Below are positions 1,197 to 5,290 of a DNA stretch of 64,000 bases, piece by piece. The stretch's first letter is position 1, and each line of letters opens with the position of its first letter. The stretch lies in contig JAFZPH010000001.1 of the NCBI GenBank assembly GCA_017550405.1, positions 1 to 64,000 on the forward strand, read 5' to 3'. Source of the DNA: Bacteroidales bacterium (GTDB taxonomy: Bacteria > Bacteroidota > Bacteroidia > Bacteroidales > P3). The translations under genes were made by a program, and so were the position numbers. A model generated the notes under the pieces. That model saw nothing but the letters and a program-made list of their open reading frames with translations. It did not search any database and was not told the DNA's origin.

Positions 1197-1967
1197 CTAA
1201 TCTTTCTTATTTCCGTCACTGCTATCCTCTTTTTGCTGTTTATACCCTATCCGTTTTCGTGGGGTTGATGATTTCTCACACAGTTGGTCGAGGGCATCGT
1301 TGATGGCCTCTATTTGAAGTGCTATCTCGTTGTTGGTCTCGTCTTGCATGCGGTTGATGTCGTTCTGGTCGTGCAGGATTTCTTCCACATAGTTGTTAAG
1401 CTGGTCTACTTTGTGCGACAGTTGCTCTACCTTCAGGTTCACCCCTTGCCATGCACTCACTGCATGGCGTATCGCCACAAACGCCCGCATAATGTTGATG
1501 TTGACTTGAATTGCCGTCTCCGACCGCAGTACCGAACTCAACATTGCAATGCCCAATTCGGTAAAAGCATAAGGAAGATACTTGCTATGCTGGCCACGCC
1601 CATTTGAAATCACAGTTTGTGATTTCAAATCATATTTGACATCGTTTAAGGTCACAATTTGTGACCTCAAACTAGTCTCAATAACGTCAATCTCTTCAGT
1701 ATCAGCACCAGTAGTACTCTGCTTTAAGGTCACAATTTGTGACCTTAAAAACGCCCATTCACTTTTGTTCAACTTAAACATAAAGTCTTCAGGGAAACGC
1801 TCAATATTACGTTTGACCGCTTGGTTCAAGACTTTTGTTTCCACCCCATACAACTCCGCCAGGTCGCGGTCGAGCATCACACGCAAGCCCCGCACTTCGT
1901 AGATACGGTGCTTGATAACCTCCACCTCGGAAGTCCCAATAGTTGTTATTTCATTCTCACTCATCAT
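1197..1967 (-). CDS. ORF6N-domain DNA-binding protein
   Basis: The N-terminal part matches the ORF6N domain of phage antirepressor-like proteins: IYEVRGLRVMLDRDLAELYG, then VLNQAVKRNIERFPEDFMF, then PYAFTELGIAMLSSVL and the NINIMRAFVAIR segment. Between them, at residues ~70-125, an insertion repeats the motif LRSQIVTL two or three times; the underlying DNA is strongly palindromic. The C-terminal third (about 175-230) is a predicted coiled coil followed by a charged tail. Such proteins are common in Bacteroidota accessory regions and are assumed to bind DNA, but their targets are unknown. The membrane gene follows 6 bases downstream. ATG codons at 1967 and 1964 are equally good starts. Confidence 0.85.
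   Translation of the reverse strand: MMSENEITTIGTSEVEVIKHRIYEVRGLRVMLDRDLAELYGVETKVLNQAVKRNIERFPEDFMFKLNKSEWAFLRSQIVTLKQSTTGADTEEIDVIETSLRSQIVTLNDVKYDLKSQTVISNGRGQHSKYLPYAFTELGIAMLSSVLRSETAIQVNINIMRAFVAIRHAVSAWQGVNLKVEQLSHKVDQLNNYVEEILHDQNDINRMQDETNNEIALQIEAINDALDQLCEKSSTPRKRIGYKQQKEDSSDGNKKD
1602..1749. repeat. Three palindromic coding repeats inside the ORF6N gene
   Basis: Three near-identical inverted repeats lie at 1602-1630, 1645-1671 and 1723-1749. The third is perfect: 13-base arms TTTAAGGTCACAA and TTGTGACCTTAAA around one base. The second has one mismatch. The first has 13-base arms ATTTGAAATCACA and TGTGATTTCAAAT around three bases. On the minus strand they encode the repeated LRSQIVTL / LKSQTVIS peptides. 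Confidence 0.85.
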
Positions 1968-2800: not shown

Positions 2801-5290
2801 TCAGAGCCCCCTTGTCCTGCGGGGCGCAGAGGAGATGACGGCGTCTCGAGGACGGGTATTGGAAACACGCTTGCTTGCAGGCTTGCCCGTTGAGGCGGTG
2901 ACAGATGACTTGCTTTTGCCTGCCGATTTCACAGCCGGCTTGCTCGTTGACTTCCCTGTGGGTTTCCCAGCGTTGCTAGGTGCCGATGCCACAGGATTTT
3001 CTTCTGTAGCAACAGGTTGTGTGGGGCTATCATAGTCAGTCGGAGTGTAGTTACCTCTATTTCGTTTGTAGTTAGTCATCGAGTTCACGCGACTGATGCG
3101 CGACGAGAGATTGTGGCCACCGGTGGTCAGCAGGTCGGCGTAGGTGATAATGAGCGACGAAGTCTTCATGTATCGTCCGGCATTGCCTTTCAAATTGGCA
3201 ACATACCAATTCTTCACATCCTTCAAATCCATCTCGTCTTTGAAGATGTTGCTCCCGTCTGGTCGCGACAACAGATCGAGGTTGTTCTTGCCCACCCCGC
3301 GCATCAACTGGTTCACCTTCCGTCCGCGCAGCATGGTATTGTAGCTCTCGCGGTCGCGTATCTTCACCCCTCGGGGGTAGGAGAGGTATCGCGCCAGCTG
3401 CTTGAACTGCTCTTCGGTAAGTCCACCCAGCATATTCTTCACATCTTGCAGGTTCCTGCTTATGCCCGCCTTGGTGTCGCGGCTCACATTCCGATAGATA
3501 GCATCGATATTCTCCTCAGTATACGACATATTATATTTCTGCTCATTCTCACGCAACTGCTTGTCGACATGCTCTTTCTGATAGTTCTTGAAACTGCGCT
3601 GCGACAGGCTGTCGGCCAACAGTCCAATCTCTTCGGTGCTCAGCTTTCGGATTTTGTCAAGCAACTCGGTCGTAGGTTTGTACAGCAGGAAAGGCTTGTT
3701 CTTAGGGAACGAGGGGTATGTATTACCCGAATAGCTGATGTTGTTGTCGATAAACAGCTGGTACAATGCAGTATATTGCACTACTCGCGCCAAGTCGGTG
3801 TTGCCGAGGGTGGCGAAATAGTGGTAGGCCTGGCTCTCGTAGCGGTAGCCTATCGACTGGCTACGCTCCTGCGAATTGAAGTAGCTCACCGGCAGCGAAC
3901 CCGTGCGTCCCAAGGTGTAGATGGTGTATTTGAATGTGTTATTGCGAGAATGTGTTAATGTGCGAGTGCTGGAACTATCGTTTTTCTCGCAATCAATCGC
4001 GTACATCGCTCCAGCGGTGTTCCAGTTATAGACCAACTCATTCAACCCCAACTTCTTGAACAGCGGCTTGTCGAAGGGATAGTAGCCTGGCTCGGGATAG
4101 CGGTAATAGCCCTCCTGAATAGTACCGCGTTCCGACCAGTCTTTCAGCAGCACATCGGTGATAGTCATCAAGTCGCCAAACTCGGTGTTCTCCAGCTCCT
4201 TACTCAGGTAGGTTGGACACCAGTCGCGCCCATCATTCATCTTGCCGGCCATCAGGTCGTTGATGTCCAAGCTTTGCGACAACTCCTTCTCGGTGGTTGA
4301 AGCCAGCAGCAGGATGGTTTCAATCTGTAGCGGGGGCAGCTCGTTAAGTGGCGACTGCCTCTCACGGCCGATGATGACCAGCGTGCTACTATCGGCCAAA
4401 GCACCCAGAATCAGGTCGGCATCCAGTGTGAACTGCCGTATGGGAGTACGGGCATCTTGCCCGTCATTAGGAGTACGGGCAAGATGCCCGTCAACAGCAA
4501 CACGGGCAAGGTGCCCGTACTCCTGCTGACGGGCAGGGTGCCCGTACTCCAAAAGATCAGCATTCTTAGCAAGCGCCCAAGCCACAAAGCCTGGCTGCTG
4601 GCTAAAGAAAACACCCCGTGCTTTCGTAGCAAAAATGTCACTAATGGTCAGCACAGTGTTTGTGTCATCAAGATGGATGAAGCCCTCTCCCTCCTCCATA
4701 AACCAAGTGTTAAACTCTTCCAATGTAATCTGGTAGTCGATATTCTCCTTGGCAAAATAACGGCGTTTTTCTTCGGCAGGAAACTTCATCACCGTAGGCT
4801 TGTATTCACTGAAAAAGAGTTCCCTATTCAGTCGACGTATCAGCCTATCGCAATTCTCCTGAGTGGCGTTGCCGAGCAGGATGAGCATGTCGGTCGTGTA
4901 GCCGTCATAGCCTATGGGATGCCTGCGCTGCGCAGCCTTGTGCGTGAATTGGGAAAAGATAGATGCGATGGAGTCCGTCTCGAAGTGGGGAGGGATGTCG
5001 CTAAGCAGAATCATGCGGCTGCTGTCCGAGAACGAGGCCATCCCGATAGTCTGGTAATGGAAGCGGTACTTCTTGCGGAAGTCCTTGTAAATGGAATCCG
5101 CCATCCCTGCCGCCTCGCACCTGTCAATGTCCACGTTCTGGTTAGGGATATACTCATATTCAAACAGCCGAGCACTCTCCCGCTTCACACTCTCCCCCAC
5201 CTCTGTCCGTAACAAAAGCAACACAACCGCCACCACGACTGCCACGATGGCGACCAACCATACGACTGTTTTATGGGGTTTATAGGTCAT
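2801..5290 (-). CDS. Large membrane-anchored protein of unknown function, 829 aa
   Basis: I do not recognise the family. Residues ~9-27 form one N-terminal transmembrane helix after a short basic start (MTYKPHKT). The rest should face the periplasm. The last ~90 residues are rich in Lys, Ser, Pro and Ala (repeats of the type SAGKP and TGKPASK) and look disordered and basic. Residues ~247-283 carry four tandem inserts reading EYGHLAR, DGHLAR, DGQDARTP and similar, each encoded by a small palindrome (separate entry). They interrupt an otherwise ordered region, and a worn copy (GRTGSLPV) may sit near residue 465. The SGNH hydrolase lies downstream in the same orientation. A -7 box at 5447-5456 gives a leader of about 150 bases. 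Confidence 0.75.
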   Translation of the reverse strand: MTYKPHKTVVWLVAIVAVVVAVVLLLLRTEVGESVKRESARLFEYEYIPNQNVDIDRCEAAGMADSIYKDFRKKYRFHYQTIGMASFSDSSRMILLSDIPPHFETDSIASIFSQFTHKAAQRRHPIGYDGYTTDMLILLGNATQENCDRLIRRLNRELFFSEYKPTVMKFPAEEKRRYFAKENIDYQITLEEFNTWFMEEGEGFIHLDDTNTVLTISDIFATKARGVFFSQQPGFVAWALAKNADLLEYGHPARQQEYGHLARVAVDGHLARTPNDGQDARTPIRQFTLDADLILGALADSSTLVIIGRERQSPLNELPPLQIETILLLASTTEKELSQSLDINDLMAGKMNDGRDWCPTYLSKELENTEFGDLMTITDVLLKDWSERGTIQEGYYRYPEPGYYPFDKPLFKKLGLNELVYNWNTAGAMYAIDCEKNDSSSTRTLTHSRNNTFKYTIYTLGRTGSLPVSYFNSQERSQSIGYRYESQAYHYFATLGNTDLARVVQYTALYQLFIDNNISYSGNTYPSFPKNKPFLLYKPTTELLDKIRKLSTEEIGLLADSLSQRSFKNYQKEHVDKQLRENEQKYNMSYTEENIDAIYRNVSRDTKAGISRNLQDVKNMLGGLTEEQFKQLARYLSYPRGVKIRDRESYNTMLRGRKVNQLMRGVGKNNLDLLSRPDGSNIFKDEMDLKDVKNWYVANLKGNAGRYMKTSSLIITYADLLTTGGHNLSSRISRVNSMTNYKRNRGNYTPTDYDSPTQPVATEENPVASAPSNAGKPTGKSTSKPAVKSAGKSKSSVTASTGKPASKRVSNTRPRDAVISSAPRRTRGL
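4443..4550. repeat. Four tandem palindromic elements inserted in a reading frame
   Basis: Four units, at about 4443-4469, 4470-4500, 4501-4523 and 4524-4550, share the core ACGGGCA-NNN-TGCCCGT (7-base arms, 3-base loop: TCT, AGA, AGG, GGG). Each has one flank GGAGT; in the first two it lies on the left and in the last two, inverted, on the right. All keep the 829-aa frame open. They resemble mobile palindromic elements tolerated inside genes, such as the Rickettsia palindromic elements. Confidence 0.85.

Follow-up and report, generated by a model that had tools for sequence, protein, structure and literature searches.

Transposons are usually thought to disrupt the genes that they enter. Intragenic REPs have been described in many species, together with the RPEs of Rickettsia, and CGTC repeats, some RPEs among them, reportedly lack a dedicated transposase (PMC3733652). 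In this line, intragenic GTAG/CGTC REPs such as those in uvrA of Opitutus terrae occur as units and dimers in coding sequence, DNA-repair genes included (PMC3733652). On the side of the enzymes, the TnpAREP transposases of subclass 2.4 (RAYT group 4) combine HUH and YIxNNP motifs with flanking REPs, have the Bacteroidetes among their main phyla and are encoded by genes in which in-frame REP insertions have been reported; the survey of these subclasses dropped proteins of unexpected length, taking them for fusions or errors of annotation (PMC6006769).

The locus analysed here lies in a window of 64,000 nucleotides (the whole stretch of DNA under study), where four palindromes lie in frame within a protein-coding gene. 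Like RPEs, they belong to elements that sit in frame within unrelated genes and are apparently tolerated, but they occur in another host group (a Bacteroidales-type genome) and form a family with a dedicated transposase; the likeness is one of behaviour. The original prediction had compared them with the Rickettsia elements, which holds for the in-frame palindromic insertion; the elements themselves are REPs tied to a TnpAREP, and membership of the RPEs is not claimed for them. The more surprising part is found outside the window, as the transposase is also nested in frame within a gene, and this arrangement is recurrent. The enzyme resembles subclass 2.4 / RAYT group 4 in its motifs, flanking REPs and phylum, and differs in being nested as a whole, and in frame, in a host gene to which it is unrelated, in mostly having no ATG of its own close by, and in a GGRRY tag instead of the canonical GT[AG]G of those REPs. 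In intragenic REPs of the Opitutus terrae type, by contrast, only short repeats were reported in genes, and no transposase. Another analogy is offered by inteins, which are likewise passenger proteins in frame within essential genes and genes of DNA metabolism and carry a domain of endonuclease type, although here there is no splicing domain and the passenger is apparently retained in the host protein. We found no report of an in-frame TnpAREP in essential genes in the open-licence literature, and whole transposases nested in frame within essential genes appear to be undescribed.

The palindrome array and its variation among relatives

The motif ACGGGCA-NNN-TGCCCGT matches the window at 4448-4464, 4475-4491, 4502-4518 and 4529-4545, with a spacing of exactly 27 nt, and the minus-strand frame stays open across the whole array (Table 1), as had been proposed. 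Shuffled sequences gave a mean of 0.24 palindrome matches with two mismatches allowed, none of the 100 shuffles reaching four, and no further copies of the palindrome were found in the window. The GGAGT tag bears out the suggested two units per orientation, and the resulting 49-nt arms (4443-4491 and 4502-4550) are 86% complementary; as a single strand, the array folds into one long hairpin (-50 kcal/mol, z -11.7). The four loops, initially stressed as different, are not unrelated sequences: AGG and GGG are CCT and CCC on the opposite strand, and when read in tag orientation the loops TCT, AGA, CCT and CCC fit the YCY rule of the family in three cases out of four, unit 2 (AGA) being the exception. 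The host had been called an envelope protein, a name for which the membrane segment is the sole basis, while no Pfam family matches it. Also in the window (1197-1967, minus strand) there is an ORF6N-like protein with internal LRSQIVTL repeats, as judged from its translation.

Table 1. Position and strand of the REP units, their host gene and the associated transposase (window coordinates unless a contig is given)
Feature	Coordinates	Strand	Description
REP array	4443..4550	.	In frame and REPIN-like; two direct and two inverted units over 108 nt (36 codons)
REP unit 1	4443..4464	+	GGAGT tag + ACGGGCA-TCT-TGCCCGT
REP unit 2	4470..4491	+	GGAGT tag + ACGGGCA-AGA-TGCCCGT; tag and loop in opposite senses
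REP unit 3, inverted	4502..4523	-	GGAGT + ACGGGCA-CCT-TGCCCGT on the - strand
REP unit 4, inverted	4529..4550	-	GGAGT + ACGGGCA-CCC-TGCCCGT on the - strand
Host gene	2801..5290	-	Encodes 829 aa with a membrane segment at the N-terminus; no Pfam family matches
TnpAREP/RAYT-type HUH transposase	G000:C60:81731-82288		Near subclass 2.4; outside the window

Orthologues of the 829-residue gene occur in eight congeners (74-89% identity), of which seven lack the array, providing the empty sites that had been sought, and one (G026) has two units. A further relative, the rumen Bacteroidetes MAG RUG13549 (G825), has six. This series of 6, 4, 2 and 0 units is always in frame and at the same insertion point, the outer units are common to the arrays, and the lengths change in steps of 27 nt. 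Because the 27-nt phase is fixed, the outer units are shared and the relatives show the 6/4/2 series, these data point to one inverted pair that was inserted and then grew or shrank locally in 27-nt steps, and the independent insertion or copying of four units, as first envisaged, finds no support. The early figure of some 36 added residues is right for the array itself, but the gene exceeds the empty site by a net 93 nt (31 residues) and not by 108 nt, because about 15 nt present in the insert-free relatives are missing here. In G825, moreover, a single REP unit lies in frame in the PrmA gene.

A REP family spread across the genome

Across its 62 contigs (3.08 Mb), the genome contains 30 exact copies of the core, clustered on eight contigs, and a broadened pattern with variable arm bases detected 47, against none for the reversed-pattern control. 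Other copies are therefore plentiful, and homologues of the host gene do not all share the same four units, which are the two observations that would have had to come out otherwise for the original prediction of a coding-tolerant repeat family to fall; palindromes across the genome and in-frame insertion into coding sequence both speak for it. The tagged element is present at about ten unrelated places, within as well as between genes. As a short palindrome in many genomic copies, flanking a RAYT gene on both sides (at G000:C60), it behaves as a REP family; it also has a one-sided 5′ tag, though GGRRY and not of the GT[AG]G type; REPs that lack GT[AG]G have precedents in TnpA subclass 2.6 and class 3 (PMC6006769). 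The consensus of 53 copies from this genome (G000) and its relative G026 comprises a 5′ GGRRY tag, ACGGGC[A/G], a YCY loop and [T/C]GCCCGT, where the tag opens with GG, usually continues with AG and closes with Y (mostly GGAGY), and lies one base away from the stem. In the same alignment only the left of the two flanks shows conservation, as for a single oriented element.

None of the consensus versions of the unit has a stop codon in any of the six frames, a property shared by about 62% of random arms at equal GC content; the sequence is permissive for coding, not uniquely designed for it. The reading frame differs from gene to gene, giving GHLARTP in the window gene and STGILPV both in the WYL gene described below and in L024, which encodes an RlmL-like methyltransferase. 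The spacing between copies is a multiple of three in 15 of 18 cases within genes versus 9 of 28 outside (p 9e-4), which, as tandem copies are not independent, supports frame selection as secondary evidence only.

Several further arrays were seen along the way. The gene of the RlmL-like rRNA methyltransferase carries a C-terminal array (L024:3094-3356, on G000:C47) of eight REP units plus degenerate ones, translated as STGASPV-type repeats. A small ORF just 3′ of the WYL-TnpA gene (L020:3347-4134, on G000:C60) ends in a REP, and beyond it seven further units, spaced 61-62 nt apart, make up an array outside coding sequence. Sister palindromes with other arms (ACAGGCT, ACAAGCC and ACGGGCT) were found at L023:2947-3003, L020:2160-2200 and L020:2799-2883; since they adjoin the main family and obey the same loop rule, a single TnpA may serve several arm types.

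A transposase nested in a WYL-domain gene

The genome has four Y1 transposases, and among them is the REP-associated one that had been anticipated: it alone combines TnpAREP motifs with flanking REPs. The other three (on C58, C43 and C37) were set aside as mobilisers, as their DHVH ... EHH motifs look IS200-like (subclass 1.2). In the REP-flanked enzyme, NHVH corresponds to the HUH motif NH[IFV]H and YILNNP to YIxNNP with its single catalytic Y. Its best PDB match is 4er8, a TnpAREP bound to a REP hairpin (profile 5e-7, predicted fold 9e-7), which comes first by sequence and by fold and places it closer to TnpAREP than to IS200 TnpA; with the NCBIfam REP transposase model NF047646 it reaches 74.3 bits, under the cut-off of 80. 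In the first row of alignment A1 (the L020 TnpA), W148 is followed by M and not by Q, and many embedded TnpAs share this M after the conserved W, where known TnpAREPs have Q or E; it may be linked to the unusual GGAG tag.

The tnpA lies in frame within an ORF of 532 residues, with no stop and without an ATG of its own upstream of the domain. Residues 1-173 and 412-532 of this ORF form a WYL-domain regulator with a WCX C-terminus, whose WYL profile is interrupted at position 50 of 70 by the insert, and in two other genomes (G034 and G039) the site is empty, the first of these parts running directly into the second. The same fusion occurs in G026 (590 aa) and in RUG13549 (a frame of 564 aa), and a RUG071 contig has its first part. 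The REPs follow this distribution: counted by set sequence patterns, the WYL-TnpA genomes G000, G026, G825 and G826 have 30, 10, 19 and 2 copies, respectively, whereas the 59 other genomes together yielded a single copy, roughly the number expected by chance.

When the three complete fusions are compared, TnpA shows a dN/dS of 0.075-0.13 and the two WYL parts show 0.04-0.08 and 0.06-0.14, respectively. For the REP-encoded linkers the ratio is higher, at about 0.9-1.3 on the left and 0.3-1.0 on the right. TnpA is as constrained as the host protein, and from this low dN/dS it is therefore maintained, for activity or for fold; the value could merely reflect the need to fold inside the host. Most of the REP-encoded linkers of TnpA are near neutral, and their copy number varies by whole codons. 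TnpA is modelled as a confident separate domain (pLDDT mostly >85); the whole-fusion models are poor elsewhere, with low host pLDDT for lack of alignment depth, and are used here for TnpA and not for domain placement.

Nested transposases in other hosts and their proposed origin

Among 393 genomes of the order, 26 have a similar TnpA, which in seven is embedded in a larger host ORF: the WYL gene, three Eco57I-type methylases, HsdR, a PLD-helicase and DapF (as a C-terminal fusion). Another congener has a HAD hydrolase with TnpA at its C-terminus. A profile search of named genomes, seeded partly with fusions so that fusion frequencies are biased upward, added an N6/N4 DNA methylase, many DUF1156 methylases, ValS, IspG, FabZ, MetH, an SNF2 helicase, HsdR, an acyl-CoA-synthetase-like enzyme and, in another member of the phylum, RecG. 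In total, related TnpAREPs were seen embedded in frame in about 15 host protein families and about ten phyla, according to record titles Bacteroidota, Chlorobiota, Verrucomicrobiota, Planctomycetota, Chloroflexota, Pseudomonadota, Myxococcota, Acidobacteriota, Armatimonadota and Tectimicrobiota. Many of these genomes are MAGs, and long high-GC ORFs around TnpA with no recognised host (L131, L140, L159, L185 and L194) were left out of the count. No IspG other than the TnpA-bearing one was found in four Verrucomicrobia genomes, nor any ValS other than the TnpA-bearing one in two Planctomycetes MAGs, where ValS was searched by its C-terminal arm. The best tree of 79 TnpAs requires 17 changes between the fused and unfused states, of which at least four, gains and losses taken together, are forced by well-supported branches. 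Of 32 embedded TnpAs, 8 have an ATG in the 40 codons that precede the TFRL motif, versus 27 of 33 stand-alone ones (p 5e-6).

Altogether, the four palindromes of the window are REPs most likely mobilised by the single TnpAREP/RAYT-type HUH transposase of the genome. The mobility of REPs and TnpA, as well as the expression of the fused proteins, we infer from the sequences. TnpA would bind the single-stranded hairpin together with its 5′ GGRRY tag, cut it and reinsert it, presumably for the most part when the strand is exposed in replication. Within genes, only in-frame inserts would survive, which should be easy because no frame of the unit contains a stop and its translation resembles a linker peptide, such as GHLARTP or STGILPV. 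Arrays might then lengthen or shorten by whole 27-nt units through recombination or slippage between palindromes. The tnpA gene would share this entry route, REP-flanked copies having landed in frame in host genes, to be translated, mostly with no start codon of their own nearby, as a domain of the host protein. Clean loss would then be hard, and a damaging mutation would cost the cell the host protein, so the nested tnpA could persist as a non-splicing, intein-like passenger. The broader proposal, to which we give an even chance, is that one branch of the HUH transposases has adopted a mobile life nested within proteins, with repeated in-frame entry of REP-flanked tnpA into restriction-modification and essential housekeeping genes, loss of its own start and synthesis as a host domain, by which it would gain expression and protection from loss without splicing.

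Other readings of these data can be considered. The regular 27-nt phase and the series of six, four and two units do show local expansion, and could go back to a chance palindrome that slipped or was duplicated in inverted orientation, with no transposase involved; such plain repeat growth is nevertheless very unlikely, given that the same tagged element stands at some ten unrelated places, is restricted to the WYL-TnpA genomes, where it flanks WYL-TnpA, and occurs as a single in-frame copy in PrmA of G825. More credit, though still little, is due to domestication, by which REP peptides and TnpA were recruited for a host function (a flexible linker, or a DNA-binding or regulatory add-on) and not for mobility. 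Purifying selection on TnpA within WYL agrees with it, as do the many hosts that act on DNA (restriction enzymes, methylases and helicases), but the left REP-encoded linker evolves at a nearly neutral rate with copy numbers that differ between species, REPs are scattered between genes too, and IspG, ValS, FabZ, DapF and MetH are also hosts, with no function in common.

That the fusions could be assembly errors or dead genes is scarcely credible, even if they come mostly from MAGs and the host frame of HsdR in L118 (G040:C103) is lost soon after the insert, a possible decaying example of nesting. The same junctions recur in independent genomes (three complete cases and a fragment for WYL, four for IspG, three for ValS and two for FabZ), selection is strong, no second IspG or ValS copy was found, and host scores lie far over the curated cut-offs (valS 937 vs 612, ispG 480 vs 280, DapF 211 vs 115). 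Least credence of all goes to a removal of the transposase by protein splicing or from the mRNA that would restore the host protein. The only IspG or ValS found does contain the insert, a kind of location that inteins and introns can also occupy, but Pfam scans of 22 TnpA-containing fusions revealed no Hint or intein domain, the ORFs continue without stops, and both junctions show REP-encoded linkers with a freedom of variation that splice sites do not have.

Under mobilisation by TnpAREP, the transposase and its REPs act as tolerated protein insertions, apparently even in the sole copy of essential enzymes, and would represent a second route, besides inteins, for selfish DNA to hide within proteins. 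The nested copies offer a natural catalogue of enzyme sites that accept large inserted domains and suggest a set of long 'fused' proteins thrown out by surveys. Moreover, it has long been asked how RPEs and other intragenic palindromes spread, and this is now testable in a system where the transposase is present.

Some minor observations concern individual hosts. In DUF1156 methylases (L132, L133, L156, L157, L158, L172, L173, L237 and L238) TnpA has entered repeatedly, apparently at about two preferred points; Candidatus Viridilinea mediisalina is one carrier of such a nested DUF1156 gene. The IspG and MetH TnpAs of Verrucomicrobia (L146, L165, L175, L192 and L193) form one well-supported group, which suggests either movement between essential genes or shared ancestry. 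Finally, the TnpA ORF of L101 (G156:C47) ends with three HPIREDADCSGSGPTAS peptide repeats, probably encoded by a REP.
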